From Diploscapter coronatus (Eukaryota > Nematoda > Chromadorea > Rhabditida > Rhabditidae), in assembly GCA_964036155.1 (NCBI GenBank), contig OZ038422.1, positions 1,612,001-1,676,000 of the forward strand: DNA of 64,000 nt, given 5' to 3'. Below are positions 8,701 to 49,476 of the stretch, in pieces. The translations under genes and the position numbers were made by a program. The notes beneath the pieces were generated by a model that ran no database searches, was not told the origin of the DNA, and saw only the letters and a list, made by a program, of their open reading frames with translations. How positions within the stretch are numbered: position 1 is the first letter of the stretch; each line of letters opens with the position of its first letter.

Positions 8701-11700
8701 CTGCTCTTCTTTCATTTTTTCTATTCAGAAAAGAAAGAGAGAATAATGTCATTTTATTCAACAAAGGTGATAAAAAACCATTTCTTCCATTTTGTTTAAA
8801 AAGAGACGAGAAATAGGCCCGTCCAGAAAACTGCGCATTGCATGGATCATTGTATCCCGTCATTTAATGATAGGAAATTCTTTTCGGTTCTCTATTTTAT
8901 GATATTTCGTTTGCGCTAAAATATGGGTAATCTGAAGATAATTCGCAGCTTCGTATCCAACGAAAGAGTACGAGAAAAGATATCTTCCTACCTTGCCCTA
9001 TACTCTTAACTATGGGCTACGAAGCTGCGGACTATCCAAATTGGCAGAAATATGATGGAGAAATTGAATAAGAAATGAATTTCTCAGCTAATGGCAGAAT
9101 GTGTGCGTGTAGATTGATACCTCCTAAGCGCAAAACTCCGCTCTTCCTCGATGACACACAAATTGGGTTCAGATTCAGTGTTGCCCGAGCCCTGCAAATA
9201 AGCATTGTGCCTAATCATCATCCATCGACCAACAATGTTGTGTGGGTTTACCGCCTGTGTTGTCGTCGTTGTTTGATAGCCACTGTCCCTCTGCTCTTTC
9301 TGAAGTTGATGCAGACGCTCTGCCTCTTCTTCCTTCTCGGCTCGAGATTGCAGCATCAACGATACTCCGACCTAGAATTATTGTTTACTTAGCAATTATA
9401 AACCAACTATAACACACAGATCTAATCAGACTTTTAGTCAGAATTAGAAATTTTAAGGGAGGGGGTACGCAAAAAAATTTTGGCTAAAGCTCTGCCTATA
9501 TATCTGATTTTATAAATAAATGATTAAATATTCCTATTTAAAAAGTACATTATTTAGGTCTGCCATAATTAATGTTCAGATTTCTTTAAATTCGCCTCAT
9601 TTCCGTGTTATTCTTTCAAAAATCGAATTAGGCGATGATCCATTGTAAGTGGAATATAATTTATCTCGATCATCTCTATCTCCATCCCTCCCCTCGCTCT
9701 AGGCTTATATCCATTTTCCCCGTCCTCAACTCGCCTCCAGGCGAATATCAAAATCGAATCAGCTCGTTTCGGCCCTATTTTCGCATTTTCGCGCATCTCA
9801 ACTCTCAAAGGACTCGGTTGCTGAGAGAAGAGGTCACAAATGATCGCAGAAAGTGCTGAAAATGTGCTTGACACGAGCAAAGAAAAGTCCCCTTCAAGAA
9901 AAAGGCAGACGAAATTCAGCTGCAGACTTTCGACGGAAACTAATTCAACACGCGCAAAATGTGTGCATCTATTGTCAAAGAAACGATAAATAACCGCAGC
10001 TCATGCGAAATATGCTCTGTTGATAAATGTTGCTATATTGGGATATTCAATATGTAGAGCCACAAAAATCACTATTTAAAATTTTTACCTGAGTTCCAAG
10101 CCTCTGACTGAGAATCAGAGCGATATGTCTTCGCTCTTTAGCTTTAGCCTTCTTTTCGAGATTTTTAGCGGCCTGATGTATGCCCTAAATCATATAACTT
10201 GAGGACTAAATTTAAATTTGTAAAACTACTTTGTACAATATTAACATCGCTATTAGTGTCGTCCAATAATAAGCCACATACATACCTAAATTAAATGATT
10301 AACTTGTGATATATTTAAGAATAAAATTACCCATATTAACATAAGGATTTGACAAGAAAGGCGCTGAGCATTCGGCATTGCCGTTCATACTGAAATGAAT
10401 ATCTTCAAAATGAATTCATTAAATCGTAGTTTAAGCTTAAAATCAGGCAAAAATGGTGATGGATTATTGATTAATGTATCTCATGCTCAGTTTGCATATT
10501 GCTAAAGGCTATAAAGTGTGCTTTTGAAATGTGCAGGAAAAAAGAAGCGGAAAGCCAGAGTGATGCAGTGTGTTTACCGATTCGAATGCGGTTCTTCCCT
10601 GAAAAGCTTCCCTCTAAACCGCGAAGAATATGAAACATATATGAAACTCAAAATATTATACTATTGATTGGAGAGAACGTCGATATTCAAAAATTACGCT
10701 ATTCGTTTCTCTTCTACGCGACTCATTATTTCGCTCCTCCAACATTCGATCTCTAATTGTAGAATGAATATATCGACTTTCTCTCCAATCAATGATACTG
10801 TGCGAAAGAACTATAATTATTGTAAACTAAAATATGTGATGTCGCAGAAACACACAGTGCTTTGGTTTGTCTGACGAGGAGTCATAAAAGTTTTTTAAAA
10901 ATCGATTTTTGAAAAATCTGCTGAGATGGAATTGTAAAGAATAGCTGTAAGAGCTTTGGCGAAAAAACACTTTAGAAAATAACGGAAGGATGAATAGCTC
11001 TATTCATCTTTCTAAAAGTGACACCGGACGACAGGTCAAAGCACTGTGAGTAAAATATAATTCTGTGATTGAAACTGGTGATTTATTGATTTTATTCTAA
11101 TTTTCAAAGCGAATAAATTATAACCTGGAAGAGCCTCCGGTCATGGCCTTCCAACCGTATATCATGATGCCGAATATGATGGCCGGTATGAGCCACGACA
11201 ATATTATGCACATCTGCGTTTTCGAGGGACTCTGCCACTTGAGATATTTCGCCGTATGGCACACTTAAAATAGAAAGTTTAGCCTTAAAATCAAATTTTT
11301 CAAGTTTACCAGATAAATATCGGTCTGCAGTGATCAATAGCACTGTCAAAATCGATACGAGACATAGTGTATAGTCCAAAAATAGCCATGTTTCACAGGC
11401 TATACTTCCTAAGGGCCATCGCTCGCCTGAAAATGGTATTTAAATTGGAATTTATCATATATTCATTAGGCTTAAATCTATATGATACCTTATCATTTTC
11501 TAAGATATTTCTTATGATAAGTCGTACAATAAAATTGTTTCTTCTTCTTCTTCTTCTTCTCGGATTTTCCTTTATCCCCTCCCTTATTCTTCAAGTTTTC
11601 CAGTCATTTGGTTGATTTTGTCAGCGGTGTGCATTAAGTGCATCGAGATTAATGGAAAATGGGCAGAAAAGAGCTGAGTCAAATGAAGGGGAACTTATAA

Positions 11701-35356: not shown

Positions 35357-37058
35357 TTCCCACAAGTTGTTCAATTTTAAACTCCACTTAAATATGAAGT
35401 TTTAGCATTTTTATCATGGCTACTCACAGGTACTGAAAAATCGTACCTGCACCTTTTACCCGTAGGTAGTCCTGACTTTTTTATTTACACATTCCCACAT
35501 CCTGTAATCATTATCTCTGTGAAAACAAATAGCATTTGAGTTGCCAAATATTAGTTTAATATCATATTCAATTAAGTCATATCTAAGCTTTAATTATCAT
35601 GCATATTCAACTATTAAATTACGCCAAGAATGCGACATATCATATGTACAGTTTTGAATATCACACGATTTTTATCCATATCGAAATAAGCTTTATATTT
35701 GATGAGACTTTGTAATGATTATTAACTTTTCCGAAAATTCGAAATTCGAATAAACATTCATGTTTGTATTTGGCGATCATTAAAACTTAGCATGGTAGTA
35801 ACATTCAATAATGCATATACTTATTAAATACAGAAGTACGGCATATTTTAGTCATGTAAGTGTATAAAATTGGAAACATGTAGTCATTTTGTTTAGAATC
35901 AACGTATAGCTTTATTTAAATGCAAACCCTAGTCTCTGCCAGGCTAAGAAAATTTACTTTCTAGCCACTAAAATCGCTGTGCACCACTTTGCACGCCTCC
36001 CAGATTTCGGCATCAACAATAATGAGCTGAAAACCTACGACACTTCGTGCACATTCATCGTTCATTCCTTGTATTCTAATTTTTGCAACTTTTCTAGAGA
36101 TTTTTATATTAGTTTATTTTTACCAGAGATTGATGATAATTCCATGTTTTCAAACACAGTACGAAACATTACTTTCAACGTCAAAGATAAGGCTAATTGA
36201 AATCCTTGATTAACATTCATTGCCATTGCTATATAAATTCTCAATATCTCAAAATGTTGCGATTTGGACTCACTTGACATAATATTTGCACAAAAACCTT
36301 AGACTTATCTGATTCCCAACGGGAGAACAACTTTTCGGCGTTTACATGACAACTCGAATATTCTGGGAGATTCTAATTAACAAATAATTCGGTTATCATA
36401 CGAAAATGTTCATATTCAGTATCGTGAGATCTACACCAACCAGCTTCAACTTGTAAGAATAATGGATAATTAATTCGAATTAATTAACTCCAGCCCAGAT
36501 TTAGGGAGAATTTTTGTCAGATGGAAATAAACTAGAGGGTAGGTCGCAAGGGCTTTCTGACGATAGTCCTCCCTAGGACTGTATTAAACTGAAATTAAAT
36601 AGATTGACGTCATGAAAATGATAGAGAAAATGTCTCATCATCAATCAGGTAGTGAAAAAGAGATTGACTGAGAAGAAAATACAATGGCTATTTCAGTGAA
36701 ACATCGAGAAAATAAGAAAAATACGCTAACATTGATACTGCCAACGAACAATATTATGTTTTGAATACGCTCAACAACTGTTCACAAGAAATCGATTCTA
36801 TTTCTGCTATATATCTTGAAGGGGTTACTTTGAAATTCATTAATGGGTTGAAATTACTATAAAATAAATATTGGATTTGGTTACAAAATTTTCGAAAGAA
36901 AATATTTTAAAGAATGTTTATTTCAGCTATAATTATCCCTTATCGTTACTGAATATTTTCGAGAGTTGTCTTTATCATGTTTATTAAAATTAAATTATTA
37001 TTTCACATTTTATTGAATAAAATTTCCATATAAAATCTGATATTATTATAATCAAGCT
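35357..37058. other. Intergenic region, mbr-1-like and Hsp70-kelch 3' ends
   Basis: Convergent genes meet here. It holds a copy of the dispersed CACTTTGCACGCC repeat (35980-36020) and a family G repeat (36499-36580). No exon seen. Confidence 0.6.
36499..36580. repeat. Inverted repeat, family G, copy 1
   Basis: Left TTAGGGAGAATTTTTGTCAG and right CTGACGATAGTCCTCCCTAG, with the shared middle AGGTCGCAAGG. Copy 2 is at 51654-51735, and a partial copy is at 50717-50800. Confidence 0.8.
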
Positions 37059-37063
37059 TTATT
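37058..37063 (-). terminator. AATAAA overlapping the Hsp70-kelch stop codon
   Basis: The last codons read ATA AAA TAA AG, so the TAA stop is embedded in an AATAAA hexamer. If it is used, the 3' UTR would be very short. Confidence 0.4.
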
Positions 37064-40000
37064 TTATGTTAATTTCTCCGACTTCTTGCCATTTATTCGT
37101 TTGTGGATCGTATTCCTCGATTGAATTACAAAAATTTTCAAATCGTTTTTGAAATCTGTTAACAAATATTTCGTATAAGGGTATGCAAAATCTCAGCTCA
37201 CCCTCCGATTGCATATAATTTCCCGTTAGCGACAATGAGCGAATGATCTATTCTTGCATAATTCATATCAGCGATTTGAGAAATTCGACTGTCAACTCGA
37301 GCTGAGGGGTCGAAACACAGACAGGATTTTAATACACCATCACTACTAAATATATAATGATAAATTATTTATCATACAAAATTAACAACAATCGTCCTTC
37401 AGTCATGTAAATTTTTCCATTTAGCGATGCAACTCCGAAAGAACGTCGTCTTTCTGGAATCTCTCCGATTTCAATCCATTTCTGTTCATCGTCTGATAAT
37501 CCATATATCTTTCTACTTCCCCAACCATCAATAACTGAATATCCATAATTACAATAATGAATATGCTATAATGTGACCGTATAAACTTTCATCGCATGTT
37601 ATTGTTTGAGGAAATATAACTGAAAGAGGAAAAGCAGGTCCTGTTTGCCATATTCCGTCTATTAAAACCTGAATAAATTATTTCATCGATTTTCCTTCGA
37701 TCTTCTTACATTAACTCGATTCGTGCGTAGATATGTTTTAGAATCCTTTCCACCCAAATAATACAATTTACCTTTGAAATAAGCCACAGATGCATCATTA
37801 CGCCATTCAAGAGGATCTGGACCTGCAAAATTCTTTTGAATCGATCATCAATGGATTTGTTGATAAGACCTCTTGAAACCATTCGAGTATTAAAGTCAAA
37901 TATTTCAAAGAATTTACTTTCGTTGCCAATTGCAAAAATCTAAAATATGAGAAATTATTCAAAATAACGAACATAAGAATTTACTCTATCCTTTGTAACT
38001 ACTACTTCGTGTGTAAAATAAAAATTGTGAAATTTTATAATCTCTTCGACTGAGTAGGCATATGAATTGAGCAGGCATATTCTTCCTTCATCTTTATCAT
38101 TATTTGGATAATAAACTAAATTATTACGAATCGTTTCAAAGCCTCTTACTTAGCCTTTATTTCTATTTCTTACAATAAAATAAAACTTCACGCGAGTTAT
38201 TGAGTGAACTGTCTCCACCAATTTGCAAATTAATTTTTCCAACTTTACGCCATTTATGCGTTTGTGGATCGTATTCTTCGATTGAATTACAAAAATTTGT
38301 ATGTAAAAGTTGTTGAAATCTAATTGTAAGTTAACACATATTTCGTATAAAGATATGCAAAATCTCAACTCACCCTCCGATAGCATACAACTTTCCGTTA
38401 GCGACAATGAGCGAATGATGATATCTTGCATAGTTCATATCAGCGATTTGAGAAATTCGACTGTCAACTGGAGCTGAGGGATTAAAACACAGACAGGATT
38501 TGAACAAATTAGGATGGCTGAATATATAATTATATATTATTTATCATACAAAATTAACGACTCCTGTCCTCCAGTTATGTAAATTTTTTCATTTAGCGAT
38601 TCAACTCCAAAATAAATATGTCCTTCTGGAATCTTTTCAATTTCAACCCATTTCCGTTCGTTGTTTAATAATCGATATATCTTATTACTAATAAGTGTAT
38701 CAATAACTGAATATCTATAATTACAATAATGAATATGCTATAATGTGACCGTATAAAATGTCATCGCATGCTATTGTTTGAACGTAACGAATTGGATAAG
38801 GAAAAGCAGGCCCCGTTTGCCATTGTCCATCTATCAAAATCTGAATAAATTAGTTCATGGACTTCCATTCGATCTTCTTACATCAACGCAATTTGATCCA
38901 CCCAAATAATACAATTTGCCCTTGAAATAAGCGACAGATGCACCATAACGCCATTCAGGAGGGTTTGGACCTGTAAAATTGTTTGAATCGATCATTCATG
39001 GATTTGCTGATAAGACCTCTTGAAATTTGTCGAGTATTCAAGTCAAATATTTCAAATGATTTTTTAAATGAGCAAAGTCCAAAAATCTGAAGCTTAAGAA
39101 ACTATTCAAAATAACGAAAGTGAGAATTCACTTTATTCTCTGTAGTTGCTACTTCATATGGCCAGTACCAATTATGGAATTTCGTAATATTTTCTATTGA
39201 GCCGGTACATGAATTGAACAAGCATATTCTTCCTTCAGGTTTATCATTAGTTGGATAACAAACTAAATTATTACGAATCGTTTCAAAATCTCTTACTTAG
39301 TTTTTAACATAATTTCTTACGATAAAATAAAATTTCATGCAAATTAAATTTTCTGACTTCATGCCATTTATTTGTTTGTGGATTGTATTCTTCAATAACT
39401 CCACATAATTTTATCGGGCAGTAAGAACTATCACTTTTCTCAATATTTTCAAATCTAAGTTAACAAATATTTCGTATAAAGATATGGAAAATCTCAGCTC
39501 ACCCTCCGATTGCATACAATTTCCCGTGAGCGGCAATGAGCGAATGATGATATCTTGCATAATTCATATCAGCGATTTGAGAAATTCGACTGTCAACTGG
39601 AGCTGAGGGGTCGAAACACAGGCAGGATTTTAATACACCATCATCATCACTAAATATATAATAATACATTATTATCATACAAAATTAACGACTTCTGTCC
39701 TCCAGTTATGTAAAAATCTCCATTTAACGATTCGACTGAATAGTTATAACGCTTTTCTTCAATTTTTCCTACTTCAACCCATTTTCGCTCGTCATCGGAT
39801 AATCGATATATTTTTCCACTTTTATAACCATCGATTACTTAATTTTTGGCTAATATTGCAAAAAAAAAACTAATAAAAACCATATAGTTGTTCATTACAA
39901 GTGACTGGCTGTAAAAATTCAGCTGAAAGGGGGAAAGCAGACCCTATTTGCCATTTTTCATCTATTAAAATCTGAATAAATCATTCCATGGACTTTCATT

Positions 40001-40417
40001 CGATCTTCTTACATCAACTCGATTCGTATTTTCCCCTGTTTCAGGATCCCTTCCACCCAAATAATACAATTTTTCTTTGTAATAAGCGACTAATGCACAT
40101 CTACGCCATTCAGGAGGATTTGAACCTGTAAAATTCTTTGAATCGATCATTCATGGATTTGTTGATAAGACCTTTTGAAAGTTGTCCAGTATTCAAGTCA
40201 AATATTTCAAATGATTTTTTAAATGAGCAAATTCCAAAAATCTGAAGCTTAAGAAACTATTCAAAATAACGAACATAAGAATTTACTTTATTCTGTGTAG
40301 TTGCTACTTCAAATGGCCAATACCAACCGTGAAATTTGGCAATCTCTTCAACTGAGCAGGTATATGAATTGAACAAGCCTATTCTTCCTTCATATTCATC
40401 ATTATTTGAGTATAAAT
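37059..40417 (-). repeat. Three tandem copies of a seven-exon kelch cassette
   Basis: Unit 1 exons: 40287-40417, 40172-40241, 40013-40125, 39881-39971, 39693-39837, 39503-39649, 39321-39454. Unit 2: 39132-39262, 39017-39086, 38882-38970, 38750-38840, 38562-38706, 38374-38517, 38174-38319. Unit 3: 37985-38115, 37870-37939, 37710-37822, 37578-37668, 37390-37534, 37202-37345, 37059-37155. Exon lengths run 131/131/131, 70/70/70, 113/89/113, 91/91/91, 145/145/145, 147/144/144 and 134/146/97. The period is about 1150 bp. Introns are also recognisably the same, for example GTAAGAAGATCGAA...TTATTCAG in all three. Confidence 0.92.
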
Positions 40418-42523
40418 CTAAATTATAATAAATTATTGAATCTTTGATTCAGTTAAATTTATTCCTATTTTTTTACAATAAAACAAAATTTGATGCGAAT
40501 TATTAAATGAACTGTCTCCACCAATCTGCAAATTATTGATATTCTGGGATAATTCATTGATTGTATTGTTAATCAATGGCATTTCAACTCCTTTCTGAAA
40601 TTATAACTTCAATCTTAGTAATGAATTATTTATTTTCAAACCCCCAAAGCATCTGCAATAATCGCAGCTCCATGCGCTATAGCTTCGTCTGGGTTTATAT
40701 CGAACTGAATTTTGGAATTACAAAATTTATTCTTTATATCCTGTTCAATTTGAGGTATTCTTGTCGATCCACCAACCAAAATCTAATTATTAAAACTAAA
40801 TCTAGAATTTAAGATTTATAGCTTTTACCACATGATCGATTTTCTCTGATGACAATTTTGCCATATTCAAAGCTCGATCGACAAATTTTATCGCTCTTTC
40901 AAATAAATCGTTGCACAACTCATTAAATTTCTCCTTGGTTAATCTGACATTAATTTCAAGATCATCGTTTATATCCAGCTAAATTTATAAAATAATGATA
41001 ATCTTATGAAATTGTTATTTTCACATGAACATCAACAGGATATTGCGAGAATGACAACGATTCCTTCGCTTTTCGACATTCAATTCTCAATCGCTTTAAT
41101 AGTCTAGGGTTCTTGTAAACATCATAACCTGGAGATGAATTGTTGAATTCATCAATCACAAATTTCATAATTCTGCTGTCAAAGTCTTGTCCTCCTAAAT
41201 TCTACATTTATAATTTGCAAAATCAAAAATCAACCTAAGTGAGCATCACCAGTAATGGCCTTAACGTTGAGACTTTCGTTTTTAATTTCAGCAATGCTTA
41301 TGTCGAGGGTACCTTAGATTTAAATTATTTTAGAATTCCAAACAAAGTCTGGAAACCTCCTCCAAAATCGAAAACAAGAAGTTTCGAATTTCCTAATTGA
41401 GCCTTCTCATTATAAGCGATGGCAACAGCCGTAGGTTCTTGCAACAAACATTTCAACTTCAGCCCGGCTAATTCAATCGCCTTCTTGGTTGCCGTGATTT
41501 GATCAGAATTGAACATCGCTGGCACAGTAACTACCGCTTCGATCACTTCTTGGCTTTTGTATTTCTGAAAATTAAGAAGACTTTGTACATGATAAGAATG
41601 TAAAAGAATAAAATTTAGAGTGCAGAACAAGAAACTTGTTAGTTTTCAGCATTTGTACGGTAAATATTACCTACGTCACTATTTTGCAACATTTTCCAAA
41701 ACTAAAAAAACTTACTTCTGTCTGAGATTTCAAGCTCTTCAAAATCTCGGCGGAAACTTCCTCTGGTCGAATAAATCTTTCATCTGGAGTTCCCTCGTTC
41801 AAAATATATCCAGCACAATTCTAAATTTCTTAATTAATTTGGCCAAAATGAATTTTTTCTACATTTCTGGTGTCTGCATTGAACGTCCATAATTGTCTAT
41901 CATCAGCAATCGGAAGATCATTCAAAACATGCCATCCGAGTAAGCGCTTCGAATCTGAAAATTCTTAATTCCAATAAAATCAGATATTCCAGAAGTTGTA
42001 TTGTCGTATATAGTTATGAATTCCTTGAGATTTTTGAGTTCAATTATGAGCAACGCCGACAGGCTAACGATATGTGGGTGCAAACATGACATTCTTTATC
42101 GATTTGCCCTAAAATGATCTAAACACTTGCCATAAAGAATATTCGCCATATCGGTGTTGCAGTCCAAAGCTGGATTTCCAACCAGAATCTCGCCATCGTT
42201 AAATGCCACTACAGAGGGTAGAGTATTCCGGCCTAAATTTTCATATTTTGGAACTCTGAAAATGTAGCAATATCACTAATGTGAAAAAATGTGAAACTTT
42301 TTCGATGATAGATGGAAAGTTGTAGCCCTACCTTTCCTACCCAGCATTATTTCATAGACTTACATTACTACTGTATCACTTATCAAAAGTGCAAAACTTC
42401 TTGAATATTTATTAACAATTTATTGATCTTACCATCATCACTATGAATCGCCATAGGTCGATCATTTTCTATAATTGCAACGCACGAATATGTCGTACCC
42501 AAGTCGATGCCAATATATGCCAT
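37059..42523 (-). CDS. Hsp70 nucleotide-binding domain fused to a triple kelch propeller array
   Basis: Predicted 1230-aa protein, 31 exons, every junction phase-consistent. Hsp70 exons: 42433-42523, 42131-42232, 41863-41954, 41716-41820, 41357-41564, 41235-41312, 41025-41194, 40829-40978, 40642-40782; chimeric exon 40477-40594. Hsp70 ATPase motifs intact: GIDLGTTYS (5-13), K67 in DSKRLLG, E173 in LQEPTA, VFDFGGGTLDIS (194-205), [12 protein letters not shown] (333-344). There is no substrate-binding domain or EEVD tail. [11 protein letters not shown] (380-390) resembles the start of that domain (GVMTPLI.RNT), then the kelch sequence begins. Three kelch units (419-695, 696-967, 968-1230) each show YYLGG, YITGG and YAIGG-type double glycines and W-containing strands, and each could form about six blades. 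Alternative: an unspliced intron after 40642 reads GTTTGA, giving a TGA stop and a lone ATPase domain of 380 residues, with a separate kelch gene from the Met at 40582. The fusion is favoured because GVE, upstream of that Met, still matches the family. Expression and client are unknown. Confidence 0.85.
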
Positions 42524-44203
42524 CTAATTTAATTAATTAAAATATTTCTTTCAAGAAAGGATAAAGAATGATTACATTAATATGGAATCTCTTGAAAAGA
42601 AAACGATAATCTAAGAACTTGAAACGTTTGCCAGATATTTGATAACATGGGCAAGACTAAAAATTTTTTGAACGAATTGTCAATAATAAAGTAATATTTG
42701 AATAATAAAAATGGAATAACGACACAATTTCGCACTTGAAACATTCAAATTTTATTCAAATAATATAAGGATCGACAAAATAATGTAATTTACAGTATTC
42801 TACTGTCTACCTTCATGATATTTCGGTTAGAAGACAAGACAAGTCATGTTCCAAACACATAAATGTGTGATAGTCCTAACATCTTCTGTCAACTTATTTA
42901 AAAGCAAATAGCATTTATTGTCGGCTTTTATGACTATGAGAGAACCTTGAATTTCGAGTCCGCAAGCTCCGCTCACTTTGCGAAGCAAAAATTGGTTCTG
43001 GGACCGTTCGAGAGTTAGTCGTTAACGAAATTTCGAGAAAAATGAATTTCTGAAACTCCAAGGAGGTTCCACATGATTATATCTTGTATGTATAAAATTC
43101 GTTCATTTTTATCATGCAAGTTGTCAAACGATGTATATTTTTATGAATTATTTTATCGATAAAATCATCGACATTTTGTGTAATATATACACATGTATGA
43201 AATACGTGAAATAACCCGCTAGAATGATAGTGTCCAATGGTACGCAAATCCAAATATGGAGATGAAAGGAAATCGATAAATATATCTGATAACACATGAC
43301 TGAGAGTGAAAAAAGATATCGTATCATGCCAGATTTGAAATTGTAGGGATTTTTGTCAATTATAAAAAATCAAACATTTTAGATAATTTATAAAAAAAAA
43401 TCCCCTGAAATATATAAATTGATAAAAAATTCAATAATGTCAAATTCATTCTCGAGTCCTTGTCGATTCACGGCGACTTCATGGCTGCAAAAATTTTTGG
43501 GGTCGAAAATTAGGAATTAAGAAAATTATGGGCTAAAACTGACAAAACTGACTAAAATAGAAATATTTGAGGCTTTATTTTTAAATTGCAACATTGAATT
43601 CACGCAAGCCGATAAGACTGGAAATCTATCATCTCGTAAGAATCTACTCGTGAAATTGCACATAAAATACGGGAAATGTGTCACGGAGATCGGATATATT
43701 CTAATTTATAGAATTCTAATTTATAGAATTTTGATTTGAAAATTCAGGAGGAAATAATAATTATTTTAATGGTCGAGCATTAGAATAAAGACTAGAAAAA
43801 CAGAGGAGCGTTAATGTAAATGGAATTTGAACATTTCGTGAGGTACTGGGGGCGATTAAAATGAGATTTTCTTTCAAGATTACTTTTAATCACCCCGGAA
43901 CCCATATAGAGCAGTGTGGCGTAATTTAGAGGCATTTATGAAATTGCAAGGAAATGGCAATATTATTCATCTTCTTTTAAATTTCATCTAGAATGGAAAA
44001 GAGTGAATAGTATTGTCAATGATATGAATAAATATCCGAAATAACAACAACTCTGAGCTTTCATAATCATTTAGAGAAATCTTAAATTGATGAAATCGCA
44101 TATCTTATAAAAGCAATATAACTACCGTAATTTAGCCAGAAATATTTATATGTAGTATTTCTACTCTTTTCTAACTGCTGAATTATCATTTGTGCACGCA
44201 TTC
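42524..44203. other. Upstream region of the Hsp70-kelch gene
   Basis: About 1.7 kb between the daf-4-like 3' end and the Hsp70-kelch ATG, both minus strand. A TTAG acceptor abuts the ATG (AAATTAG then ATGGCA), consistent with trans-splicing. I did not see a clear heat-shock element by eye. A hairpin is at 43842-43901. No exon seen. Confidence 0.55.
43842..43901. repeat. Short hairpin
   Basis: GGTACTGGGGGCGATTAAAA pairs imperfectly with TTTTAATCACCCCGGAACC across a loop of about 25 bases. Confidence 0.6.
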
Positions 44204-47200
44204 TCATAATGACACCATTTCAACACCAACAGTGTTGCTTCGATTCAGATTCTTGTGGCCTTTTTTCTTCTTTTTGTTGGCAGAATTTCGGCAGGAGTCG
44301 TTGAGCAACGGTCGTTCCGCCTGACATTGCAGAAAATTAGTCATGAGTGACTTTTTAAGTCATTAAATTGAGGTAGAATTAATGCATGTATCCTTTAGAG
44401 CAGGAAGAAAATTTACAGAAATAAATTTGATACCTGATCAAGATCCACGGTCTCCTCTGTCGTTTCACACTTCCCGATGTAGATGTAGGCGTTACCATTC
44501 CAATGCACCTTCTCGGGTTGAATAAACGGAACGTCTTCGATCAGAGGACTCTTCCGAGATTCCGCTTCCTCGTTGATCGTTTGGACTATCGCAGATGTTG
44601 GCTCTGGAATCCGACTCTTTGAAAGTTAGCAAGTTAAAAACTTTTGTTTGTACCTCGAGCCCTATGCACCGCAGCATGACTGTGCTTGACGATGCCGTTC
44701 TCCTCTGACTGACTGCTCGTTGCGCTCGACGAGAAAATTGCTGAATCCTCAGGAGCAGAGCTCTGAGTGCTGTGCGTCGAGGTTGACTCCTCCATTTCTG
44801 CTTTAACGTACCCGTTTGGGGTCGTCTTATTTTCCTCGATACCTTGTGGCATTTCTTCAGCTTGAGCCGCCGAGATTTTTGTTTTCATGATGGTCGTTCC
44901 TGGTTCTCGGGCAAGGATGTACGACATGGTCATGCTCTGGTCGTTGAGGATGTTGTCGATGCTCACTGCCTTCGCAGGCTCCTGCTTTCGCTTAGCAATT
45001 TGTGCTCGATTCGGTAGCCCTGACGCCGCTCGATTGGCTAGAGCAGAATTCGATTGTCGAGGAGGCGGCAGACTGGTTGGCGCTGGCCCATCGGGGAGTT
45101 TGTGAAGAACGGTTCTGGGGTTGATGCCGACTGGAATGGCTTCGCGCCATATCGATGGGTCGTCCTCGATTTCGATTATTTCAGGCTCAGGGATCTGGAA
45201 GAGAAATTTGAGCCATTTCCACCTGATGTGAAATATAATCGAATACCTTGTACAAGTCCTCTTCGACATCGTTATCTTCTAACTCGACGATGGATTCGAG
45301 GTGACGGCGATCTGGGGACCACCGCTTAGCGCCCACTCCAGTCTTCAGCGCTGAAACAATACTGCTGAAATTTCAAAGAGTTAAAAGTACTTTACCATGC
45401 ATTCGATATCCTCTCCTCTTTGCAATTCCCAAGAGTTTCTCGAGAGCATTTCTAGCAGTGATCCTTGCGTCTGCTTCAGTCTCCCACATCTCTGTGACGA
45501 CGTTGCTCATTTCGACGAGGATCTGAATATTCTGGTTACTTCGTTAAATTTGGTTTTAAAAATACTGGTGTCATAAGCAGTTCCATCCTGAATTCGGGTC
45601 TGGTTTTCCGACCGACAACTATCATTCTCATGTCGCCGAGAGTCGGGACCACACCGACTTCTTCTTCGAAGGGCATTTTGTACTCGGGAACAGAGCCCTC
45701 ATCGTCTGCCTCAGTTCGGGATAGAATTTCCCAGAGCACCTAAAATTAAGTGAATCGAAAGGAAATTGTAGAAAGTGCCTTACCAGAGCAGTAGCGTAGA
45801 CGTCGATCTGCTTGAATGCAGACGAAGTGAACTCTTGTGTCGCTTCGAGCATTTCTGGGGCCATGTAGCGGCGAGTGCCGACCTAAAACAAAATATGACT
45901 CCCTTGATTCTGCAAATAAATTGAAGCTTACCAGTGAAAGTTCGGTCTTGTTCGCCGATCCATGCTCATATTTGCAAGCGAGTCCGAAATCTCCCAAGCA
46001 GGTGGTCAGATCACGTCGAATGAGGATGTTCTTGGACTTGATGTCTCTGAAAAAATTTGCCGTTCGTTAAGTTATCTCGAAGGTTGAATTACCTGTGAAC
46101 AATCATCGGCTTGACCGTCACTCCATTCTCATACTCCTCGCTGTGCAAGTAGCTAACAGCAGACATTATTTCGATGCACATCTTCAGCGCTCGGACTGGG
46201 ACGTATTGGAAGTCCTTCAAGTGATCGAACAAGCTGTGATTCTCCATGTACTCTGTGATGATCCACAGTCGATCTTGTTTGTCGTCATAGCCCAGGAATT
46301 GAAGAATGAATTCATGCTTTTGAACTCTCAGGATTTCGTATATCTCCTGAAATCATCGATAAAAATCCGATTGGAAGAGAATACAAGTGCCTTTTCAGTC
46401 TTGTAGCTCTCGACGCTACACTTGTCGTTAGCGAAATGCTGCTTGATGGCGACGACCATCCTTCCTTGGGGTCGTTTCCATTCGCCTCGGAATACCTCTC
46501 CGAACCGACCTCGGGCGATCGACTAAATTTAGATCTTTGAAAACGTTAGCTCGAATCAAGTCTACCGTAAACTCATTGATGTCCAAATCATCTGTGGTGC
46601 CGCCTCCGATCAAATCATCCAACAGTTTCTCTTTGGTATCCGTAGCGACTACCAATTTGTCCTATAATTGAACAATAGAAAATCAAGTTTATTTCAAAAT
46701 TCGATGCCTTATGCTTGCTCTGTCGGTCCTTCAGCCATTTCTTTAGGTGCTTATAAAGACATATTGGAAGTATGCACACCAAAGATAGGCAAATCGGGAT
46801 GAGTAGTCTCGGCAAAAACCAAAAGAGAAACTCGTTCTTCGAATAGTCTGAAAATTGTTTGCTAAATATTTGACATTCTTCTTCAGATCTAGTAGGTTTT
46901 GCAAAGAGGATGGGTCAAATTTAAATTATGGCGAAAATGGATCTTTCTTATTTTCAATTGAACACACAAGAGTATCGAATTCTTCTTCCGTAAGGGTCAT
47001 TATAGGGGTTGGCGGGGTCGTAGTGAATGAATCCTCGGGCCATTGATAATAATTGGGGTGGTTAAATATTTAGCTAGAGTAATTGGCTAGACAATTAGGT
47101 TGAAATTACCGAGTTGTTCTTGATCGACGAACAAAGTGGTGTCCCTTTTGTCGGGGGGCAAGAGGTAGACGAACTGATTGCAGTTGGTGGATCTGCAGCA

Positions 47201-49476
47201 GCAATGATGCCACCCATTACTGTCCGCGGCGCACTGCAATTAGACGATTAGCTGGGGATTAAATCTAGATTAAATGAGGGACAAAGCGGAGATAATTGCG
47301 GTATAATGGGCCGCGCGGAATGATTTTCGAGTGCTCCATTGTGATAAACAACGTTTGCTCGTTCTTGGTCAAAGGTCTTTCAAATAACATTCCTACTGTA
47401 AAATCTTGGATTTCGACGAACAGATAAAGGTAATTGAGAAGGTATAATGAGTTGATACATGAGAAAAAGAACCTTCTGAGTGGTCTTGATTGGTAAATAA
47501 TGCCAATTACTGGTCAAAGATCGAATGGTTCGTGATTCATATAAATCCTCACCTTCGCGGGATTCTCCCCGTTCTTCTCGTCGTCAAAGCTACATTCTCC
47601 TACGATTGCGTTGTAGTACCCCCAGCAGCCTCGATGAACAATGCGCTCTTCGGAGATGGGCTTTTCGGGCTGGTTACCGTGCTTAAATGTTCAAAATTGT
47701 CCCGTTCAGTCCTATTTTTCTTCCTATTAGTAAAGTAGCATGAAATAACTCAATGAAATTTGCTTTTTTTAAAAGCCCGTGAAATATTTCAGTAGATATT
47801 GTAGCACTGCCTTGATTAAATGCTTCTTCTTTCTTTATAAATTCAGTTTTTCATTCGTATAAATCTGTACCCAGCACAAGTTCTTTGAATTTCTTGATTT
47901 TCATGATTATCGCGGTTAGTTTACCTTGACGATGGATAATTGTATCACGTGAAAATGTATATGGGGAGAGAGGAAGCTTGTGCCCTCTAACTATGTATAG
48001 AATTTTAGTTGAAAACTTGATTTTGAATAAAATTCTAAATCTTTACTTCATTCGCATGATCGACGGGTTGGAATACAGCGATACAGGCTGGGACTTGCTG
48101 ACTGCTTTTGGCATAACATCGGACAGATCTTTCATATTCTGCCAACAACGACGTGTTTATTGTTGCTGAGTGTGTACCGTTGTTTACCTGAATTCGAATT
48201 TTCTTAGTTTTCCATCGAGAAATGTTTGACTATGCTAACTTTAATTATAAGTTTATTATCTTCATTGATATGTCGTACGAAGTTGAACTCCCATAGTCCA
48301 TACCAGCAATTTGGATAATTCGTTACCCCGTTACCCATAACTAGAGGCATAAAGGCTAGAATTCGCAAGCATCGGCCATTTTTTGAAGCAAAGATCGGTG
48401 AAATGTTTATTCTCGCTAATTAGGCAATTTCATAAAGTCACTTGCAAACCCTATAGAGCGAAGTAGGAAGGAATTTTTCCATGCTACTTAGTAGGCAACA
48501 AAGTAACGCATTATCCTGGCTGCCGCTCATACCACAAAAGTCAATATGTTTTTATTCATTCCTCAGCGATGATCTAATGAAAACTTATCTACAGGACAAT
48601 AACCAAAGTCCAATTTTTATCTTTTTCATACATATATTAATCAGAAAAATCGTGATTTGATCCGGCTTTTTTATCAACTTCGTATATGATCTGTGTCACT
48701 CACCAAACATAGAATGTATTTTTTGCCGTCTTCATCTAATTTCATGCCGAGCTGTTTCTCCTTTTCCGTTAGGCCCAAGTAAAGAGTATATGGATACTGT
48801 AAAATCGAAGTCAATTTCGCATTATGAAATTAAAAATCTCTGGAAATTTGTTCTGAATCGTCATTTCCCTTATCAATATTTTTGCAAATTTGATGCCGAA
48901 ATGGGAATTTTTGTGGAATTTCAAAATTACGAAACAAAATGATAAATTATAATTGTTCTCTCAGGATTACGTAAACACACAACGATTGAGAATTAAAATT
49001 ATGGTTTTGGGGAATCATTGTTTGTTTTTACTTGTACTACTGATTCATGGGTGTGTACACAATTTTGTGGCATATTTCTTAGGAAGGTAAAATTGATATA
49101 ATGGTCAACTTTTAATTTCTTGATAAAGGAAAATGTTATTCAGATAAGGAGCAAATTAAAGGTCTTTCATAATTTAAATCTCTCACAAAACTTATTAGTA
49201 TGCAAAGTATTCTCATTGAAGGATATGATAAAAAATTTTGTCTAAGGTAAAATCCATTTCTTACATTAAAAGCATTTGCATCATGAATTTCCTTGATAAT
49301 TAGCATCAAAACTTCCTTACCTGGAATTTATGTCTGGGTTTTTCGGTGGTGAATATGTCTGATGATGGGGTGCCGAAATCTGCGAGATTTGCCTCGATTC
49401 TGATAACGATCAGGCTGATTCCCAAAAGCAGATAGCAGGTTCTGATTGTCCAGCTCGATCTCAGCTTCCAGACCAT
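44204..49476 (-). CDS. daf-4: TGF-beta/activin type II receptor Ser/Thr kinase (DAF-4 type)
   Basis: Predicted 905-aa type I membrane receptor kinase. Exons (minus): 49321-49476, 48704-48796, 48047-48187, 47553-47681, 47110-47233, 46708-46847, 46566-46661, 46385-46522, 46093-46346, 45932-46046, 45784-45882, 45566-45739, 45396-45522, 45247-45350, 44654-45194, 44434-44603, 44204-44320. A signal peptide (CYLLLGISLIVI) leads into a Cys-rich ectodomain (VRCYAKSS, HRGCWGYY, WHHCCCRSTNCN) that matches the activin-receptor fold. One TM is at about 224-246. Kinase motifs: ARGRFGEVFRG, VAIK (K320), HRDIKSKN (423-430), DFGLA (443-447), GTRRYMAPE. MPFEEEVGVVPTLGDM is typical of type II receptors. A long C-terminal tail (about 640-905) is Ser/Glu-rich and ends in a Lys-rich patch. 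Type II identity is clear; the DAF-4 symbol rests on it being the only type II receptor in C. elegans. The intron after 46708 has a GC donor. Confidence 0.92.
48311..48515. repeat. Decayed inverted repeat in a daf-4 intron
   Basis: Left TTCGTTACCCCGTTACCCATA, right TACTTAGTAGGCAACAAAGTAACG. It belongs with the elements at 23766, 24566 and 8940. Confidence 0.6.

Follow-up and report, generated by a model that had tools for sequence, protein, structure and literature searches.

A 64,000-nucleotide stretch of the Diploscapter coronatus genome (contig OZ038422.1 of assembly GCA_964036155.1, positions 1,612,001 to 1,676,000; hereafter the window, whose own numbering is used) carries on its minus strand exons for the nucleotide-binding (ATPase) domain (NBD) of an Hsp70, followed at close range by exons for kelch propellers. 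Do these exons form one gene or two, and, if one, what could an Hsp70 ATPase do when kelch domains stand where its substrate-binding parts should be? The comparisons presented here suggest that the locus is probably a single gene encoding an Hsp70-type ATPase domain joined to kelch propellers, and that, with its three propellers, it belongs to a large family of probable non-chaperone adaptors.

The gene model and its joint

An independent rebuild of the locus yields a 31-exon frame of 1233 amino acids that runs from an ATG at 42523 to a TAA at 37059, with all 30 junctions consistent in phase (Table 1). A preliminary description of this DNA had proposed the same single frame, leading from the NBD into 21 kelch exons with 30 agreeing phases, and exons 11 to 31 are indeed kelch. 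It had also spread the NBD over ten exons; the domain is there, but it occupies nine, and exon 10 is a joining exon. Exons 1 to 9 match the Pfam family PF00012 (358 bits, 8.4e-107) over profile positions 2 to 376 of 599, and the closest solved structures in a PDB search are Hsp70 NBDs (top E 1.3e-85). Because the match ends at position 376, the protein is without a substrate-binding domain; the rest of the profile, covering the interdomain linker, the substrate-binding domain and the lid, is unmatched in the gene. Intron 2 (42130-41955) has GC-AG ends (GCAAGT), and paralogs vary between GC and GT donors after exon 2 or exon 3.

The kelch part consists of three tandem units, each of about 270 residues and about 80% alike as DNA, and both Kelch_1 and Kelch_6 exceed the Pfam cut-off in all three. 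Six blades per unit were counted by eye. After designed propellers, the best natural PDB match of unit 2, the sole unit searched, is KLHL20, followed by NS1A-binding protein and KLHL12. The window gene thus shares kelch units with KLHL-type propellers (KLHL20, KLHL12, KEAP1). Those BTB-kelch proteins are Cul3 adaptors, whereas here an Hsp70 NBD, or in related genes another module called HEL, stands in front, and a Pfam scan of four pieces of the gene gave no BTB or BACK match even at E values as high as 1. The initial ~59 nucleotides of exon 10 are unique within the window and the remainder is kelch repeat (blastn repeat edge at 40535).

Whether the two parts belong together is decided at their joint. 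A TGA lies two codons past exon 9 and is followed by an AATAAA, a strong acceptor and an ATG that forms codon 5 of exon 10. These features at first led us to take seriously a pair of neighbouring genes, which might form an operon: an NBD-only Hsp70 that stops at the TGA and uses the AATAAA as its poly(A) signal, and a kelch gene beginning at the exon-10 ATG and trans-spliced at 40594. Falsely fused models are known to arise from operon genes, and SL1-type operons with almost zero spacing exist, though they are rare (PMC7986045). However, the spacing of ~50 nucleotides would fall short of the intercistronic distances given for C. elegans (c. 100 bp) and for other nematodes (medians of 111 to 981 bp; PMC7986045); by another measure the medians are 467 in C. 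elegans and 1289 in Brugia (PMC7704054). The AATAAA also occurs in four of the window gene's 30 introns, among which intron 9 ranks 11 by donor and 1 by acceptor in a leave-one-out matrix.

We abandoned the two-gene reading on evidence from paralogs. D. coronatus is described as a diploid of 170 Mbp with 2n = 2 (PMC5483258), and the assembly searched comprises 169.7 Mb in three contigs, two of them of 87.7 and 82.0 Mb. DNA matches to window positions 40450-40800 span both sides of the joint in 41 of 42 cases; with scoring confined to the best 40 of 331 candidates, this means at least ~40 places and gives no proportion of the NBD copies as a whole. At the 20 loci read closely (L048 and L051, whose pieces do not contain exon 9, were left out), intron 9 is always GT-AG, in phase and 40-47 nucleotides long. 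Its acceptors were picked by an AG-plus-PLI motif and are therefore AG partly by construction, whereas the donor, the phase and the missing ATG are independent of that choice. The codon-5 ATG is present at seven loci and absent at 13, and at seven exon 10 has no ATG among its first 25 codons, so that the kelch part cannot begin there.

Two counts weigh against a single gene. A stop occupies the second unspliced codon after exon 9 in 17 of the 20 copies, as a real gene end might show, although L019, L020 and L040 have no immediate stop and only nine of the 20 introns contain AATAAA. Also, among the matches listed, only three of 37 NBD ends have a kelch match downstream, and two have one upstream; the direct junction search gave the opposite result.

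The stop and the AATAAA have another possible source. In kelch genes that begin with HEL, similar sequence (TTTGAAAATAAATAATTC or near) precedes the same exon 10, and window intron 9 resembles the 3' part of the HEL-kelch gene intron. HEL, exon 10 and kelch were each confirmed for L052, L055 and L056; L053 and L054 coincide with L052, and L051, in which no HEL was found, is not counted. Because the stretch with the stop and AATAAA is intronic in HEL-kelch genes, it appears to be intron sequence inherited with the kelch gene. The NBD may accordingly have been joined into this intron of a kelch gene that already existed, with a new donor formed at the seam. A different intron-9 sequence is carried by L019, L020, L022 and L042, so the joint would be old or of more than one origin. 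Judged by these paralogs, the Hsp70-NBD/kelch architecture is very probably that of a single gene belonging to a real fusion family, and two adjacent genes are a most improbable alternative. The comparison thereby contradicts the separate kelch transcripts from about 40594 that the preliminary description had named as the scenario able to overturn it.

An Hsp70 head probably outside the clamp cycle

The NBD, which the preliminary description had called motif-intact, retains its ATP site where checked: all 16 ATP-site positions chosen for the comparison (DnaK numbering) are kept. K70, E171 and T199 are kept in all nine projected copies (L013-L021; L022 was left out of this check and of the NBD dN/dS, its exon 1 being misprojected with a frame offset). 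N170, which we take to be a coupling position, differs in all nine.

The surface that faces the substrate domain tells a different story. Of eight interface positions listed in a DnaK mutant study (PMC4595643), two are kept in the window gene, and Y145, D148, R151, R167, I168 and D326 (DnaK numbering) differ. Y145, D148, R151, R167 and D326 differ in all nine copies, and K155 is kept. Set against a background of 186 further positions at which DnaK and HSPA1L agree, 113 of them kept, this loss reaches only p = 0.064, which tempers the argument. R167 is the arginine that is faced by the HPD motif of the J-domain and that pairs with the linker (PMC7289447).

With the linker absent and six of eight interface positions changed, the classical switch is not to be assumed. 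With the linker, substrate domain and lid absent, we conclude that the Hsp70 clamp cycle has been lost from this predicted protein and that a putative nucleotide-binding head stays. The preliminary description had already noted that the substrate domain and lid were gone and that kelch had taken their place, with which Pfam agrees and which the paralogs strengthen. It had gone on to suggest an ATP-switched adaptor, an idea only partly borne out here: the ATP-site residues fit it, but the missing linker and altered contacts do not.

The gene could still encode a working heat-shock chaperone or, as that description proposed, an adaptor in which ATP controls kelch binding in the manner of Hsp70. 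Besides the conserved ATP site, such a role could draw on a study of Halicephalobus mephisto, in which an Hsp70 'Cluster III' of 59 Diploscapter genes is reported and read as heat adaptation (PMC6872716). We nevertheless regard it as unlikely, given that the linker, substrate domain and lid are absent, that five interface residues are replaced in every copy checked, and that R167, with its partners, is important to J-protein stimulation and allostery (PMC7289447, PMC4595643). Cluster III, compared by description only, resembles the present family as a large lineage-specific Hsp70 expansion in a comparable genome; it differs in its heat-adaptation reading, and the available part of the study's main text does not contain the words 'kelch', 'nucleotide-binding' or 'substrate-binding' (PMC6872716).

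Like canonical Hsp70 proteins (HSPA1, HSPA8, BiP, DnaK), the window gene has an NBD that contains the ATP-site residues, 156 of 376 positions being identical to DnaK and 149 of 369 to HSPA1L. Unlike them, it lacks the linker motif, the substrate domain and the lid, has most of the checked interface residues replaced and carries kelch instead. Orthology with HSPA13 was considered and is unsupported: the NBD is nearer HSPA1L (40.4%) than a provisional HSPA13 sequence (118/375, 31.5%; signature columns 21 for HSPA13 vs 52 for HSPA1L). HSPA13 (STCH) is likewise an NBD without a substrate-binding domain, but unlike the window protein it is reported to keep most J-domain contact sites (PMC9691929), and the window protein carries kelch. 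In the parts of the open-licence literature that were searched, no Hsp70-kelch fusion was found. A viral collection yielded no NBD relative among its contigs, and a prokaryote collection yielded three weak kelch-like bacterial loci; neither has a bearing on nematodes.

We prefer to describe the protein as an adaptor. Its anatomy alone would suggest that it is not a chaperone, and that the NBD serves as a constant ATP-binding head while rapidly changing kelch propellers choose the partner. The family would then be a repertoire of binding adaptors with one nucleotide-dependent head. Conceivable roles of that head are dimerisation, the docking of a nucleotide-exchange factor, and service as a scaffold that holds nucleotide; a nucleotide-held docking platform seems the likeliest, although we propose it tentatively.

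A paralog family with a constrained head

A DNA query consisting of the NBD plus kelch matches over practically its entire length, at 81-85% identity, at six other places (L014, L015, L016, L018, L019 and L020), and nearly full length at L017 and L022. The lengths of exons 2 to 9 (102, 92, 105, 208, 78, 170, 150 and 141 nucleotides) are identical in ten of ten NBD copies, the window's included, which places the gene model beyond chance. Acceptors before these exons are AG in 79 of 80 cases across the ten copies.

The NBD is open in all nine projected copies, and its median dN/dS over 36 pairs is 0.20 (range 0.13-0.26). For kelch exons 11 to 15 the median is 0.45 against 0.21 for the NBD, with kelch higher in ten of ten pairs, a contrast weakened by its coming from five loci only, of which L020 has a doubtful projection (one stop in exon 11 and a non-AG edge). 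When the four pairs involving L020 are removed, the kelch values are 0.43-0.63 over six pairs. This comparison leaves out L014, L018, L019 and L022, in which an exon length differs, and L021, which has no kelch tail. Comparison of the window gene's own three kelch units with one another gives dN/dS values of 0.52-0.71. These ratios indicate that the NBD is under purifying selection and that kelch evolves faster; the head would therefore be held while the propellers drift or diversify.

Within the kelch units (37059-40417), introns are less diverged than exons (JC 0.115-0.141 against 0.203-0.221), with patches of exon change. Constraint, gene conversion and diversifying selection are possible causes of the lower intron divergence.

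The three-propeller array of the preliminary description is borne out in the window gene, but not as a family pattern. Eight of ten other NBD-kelch copies stop no more than 15 codons past the first unit (L014, L015, L016, L018, L019, L022, L024 and L026); L017 runs into a further unit and L020 is ambiguous. Since most copies end after one unit, three propellers look like an elaboration.

Such a dispersed, multi-copy family could also contain decaying or unexpressed duplicates that arose when repeats drove the copying of genes and that do nothing as proteins, and the window gene could be one of them. It is adjoined downstream by a dispersed repeat, its NBD is missing from the corresponding locus on the homologous chromosome, some NBD copies have no recognised tail, and the acceptor before exon 5 of L014 is a broken AA, so that at least one copy may be damaged. 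Decay of the window gene is nonetheless very unlikely, in view of 31 open exons, an NBD that is open in all nine copies with a dN/dS of about 0.2, and ATP-site residues that are intact where checked.

Other observations also tell against the adaptor reading. The 19 unique residues of exon 10 have no significant likeness to a substrate domain by HMMER and a shuffle test; the idea that the exon is what remains of that domain (compared with GGVMTxLIxxNTTIP) gave shuffle p values of 0.20-0.75 and was rejected as unproven. Some NBD copies have another, proline-rich tail (L021, L033 and L041), and L034, L036 and L038 are the copies without a recognised tail. An adaptor function is likely, yet it is a deduction from anatomy alone.

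Heads apparently exchanged between loci

The window flanks map in order to contig C2 at 1.589-1.602 Mb; identity is 90-93% for the most part and 82-88% in some short segments. At this homologous locus, the ~2.06 kb NBD stretch is replaced by ~0.78 kb (C2:1596876-1596092) with HEL-module exons, read by eye, and the kelch gene carries a single unit besides an exon 10 (KGIEIPLLNN...). Pfam and PDB searches with HEL gave no significant match. Its first exon occurs at no fewer than 82 places (best 150 of 244 candidates), and among the matches listed, ten of the 82 have a kelch match 0.3-3.5 kb downstream and three have one upstream.

Because HEL, proline-rich and tail-less variants coexist, heads and tails seem to have been exchanged between genes. 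A broader possibility, to which we give slightly less than an even chance, is a modular repertoire in which a fast-evolving set of kelch exons is spliced, by way of a conserved joining exon, to exchangeable heads (an Hsp70 ATPase at certain loci, an unassigned module elsewhere), the homologous chromosomes differing in their head at one locus. On that view, the Hsp70 expansion of Diploscapter that was published as heat adaptation would be largely this non-chaperone ATPase-kelch family. In a tandem pair of NBDs at L039 (54-2979), an exon-10-like piece lies between the two, and there is no kelch match before the second NBD.

If the adaptor reading holds, an Hsp70 ATPase head has been taken out of the chaperone cycle and placed some forty times or more on a diversifying binding domain, and nature would have provided a test of the Hsp70 motor's ability to drive anything besides peptide clamping. 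Claims of heat adaptation in nematodes that are drawn from counts of Hsp70 domains may include proteins unable to hold a client. Different N-terminal modules at one kelch locus on two homologous chromosomes would make evolution by exon exchange directly observable.

Table 1. Positions of the parts of the candidate Hsp70-kelch gene and of related features (window numbering unless another locus is given).
Feature	Position	Strand	Remarks
Exons 1-9	42523-42433, 42232-42131, 41954-41863, 41820-41716, 41564-41357, 41312-41235, 41194-41025, 40978-40829, 40782-40642	-	
Hsp70 nucleotide-binding domain (NBD), complete, residues 1-379	40642..42523	-	exons 1-9; PF00012
Intron 9, NBD/kelch joint, 47 nt	40595..40641	-	holds TGA and AATAAA
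Exon 10, joining exon (NLQIGGDSS... after its first 19 residues)	40477..40594	-	also in kelch genes with other N-terminus
Kelch unit 1, exons 11-17	39321..40417	-	Kelch_1 6.7e-18
Kelch unit 2, exons 18-24	38174..39262	-	Kelch_1 1e-22; KLHL20 chains 6.3e-26
Kelch unit 3, exons 25-31, to TAA stop	37059..38115	-	Kelch_1 3.2e-20
Stretch without counterpart on homologous chromosome (NBD and ~175 bp upstream of ATG)	40641..42697	-	
HEL module, N-terminal on kelch genes, ~135 residues	L052 2003-2624 (C2:1.596 Mb)		

The repeat just downstream of the gene is ~320 bp long and lies at 36581-36900; several of its copies are near NBD or kelch loci elsewhere. Further copies make up about 36 of 42 matches listed (best 40 of 2044 candidates), and the repeat may mark how the genes spread. 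On the other side, the right flank at 43600-48600, which contains a protein kinase gene, is found again at C1:61.1 Mb (96%) and C2:57.2 Mb (93%), in addition to its partner at C2:1.6 Mb, and by these matches is a duplicated segment. A fragment of a rhodopsin-family receptor (PF00001) lies at 11104-11439.

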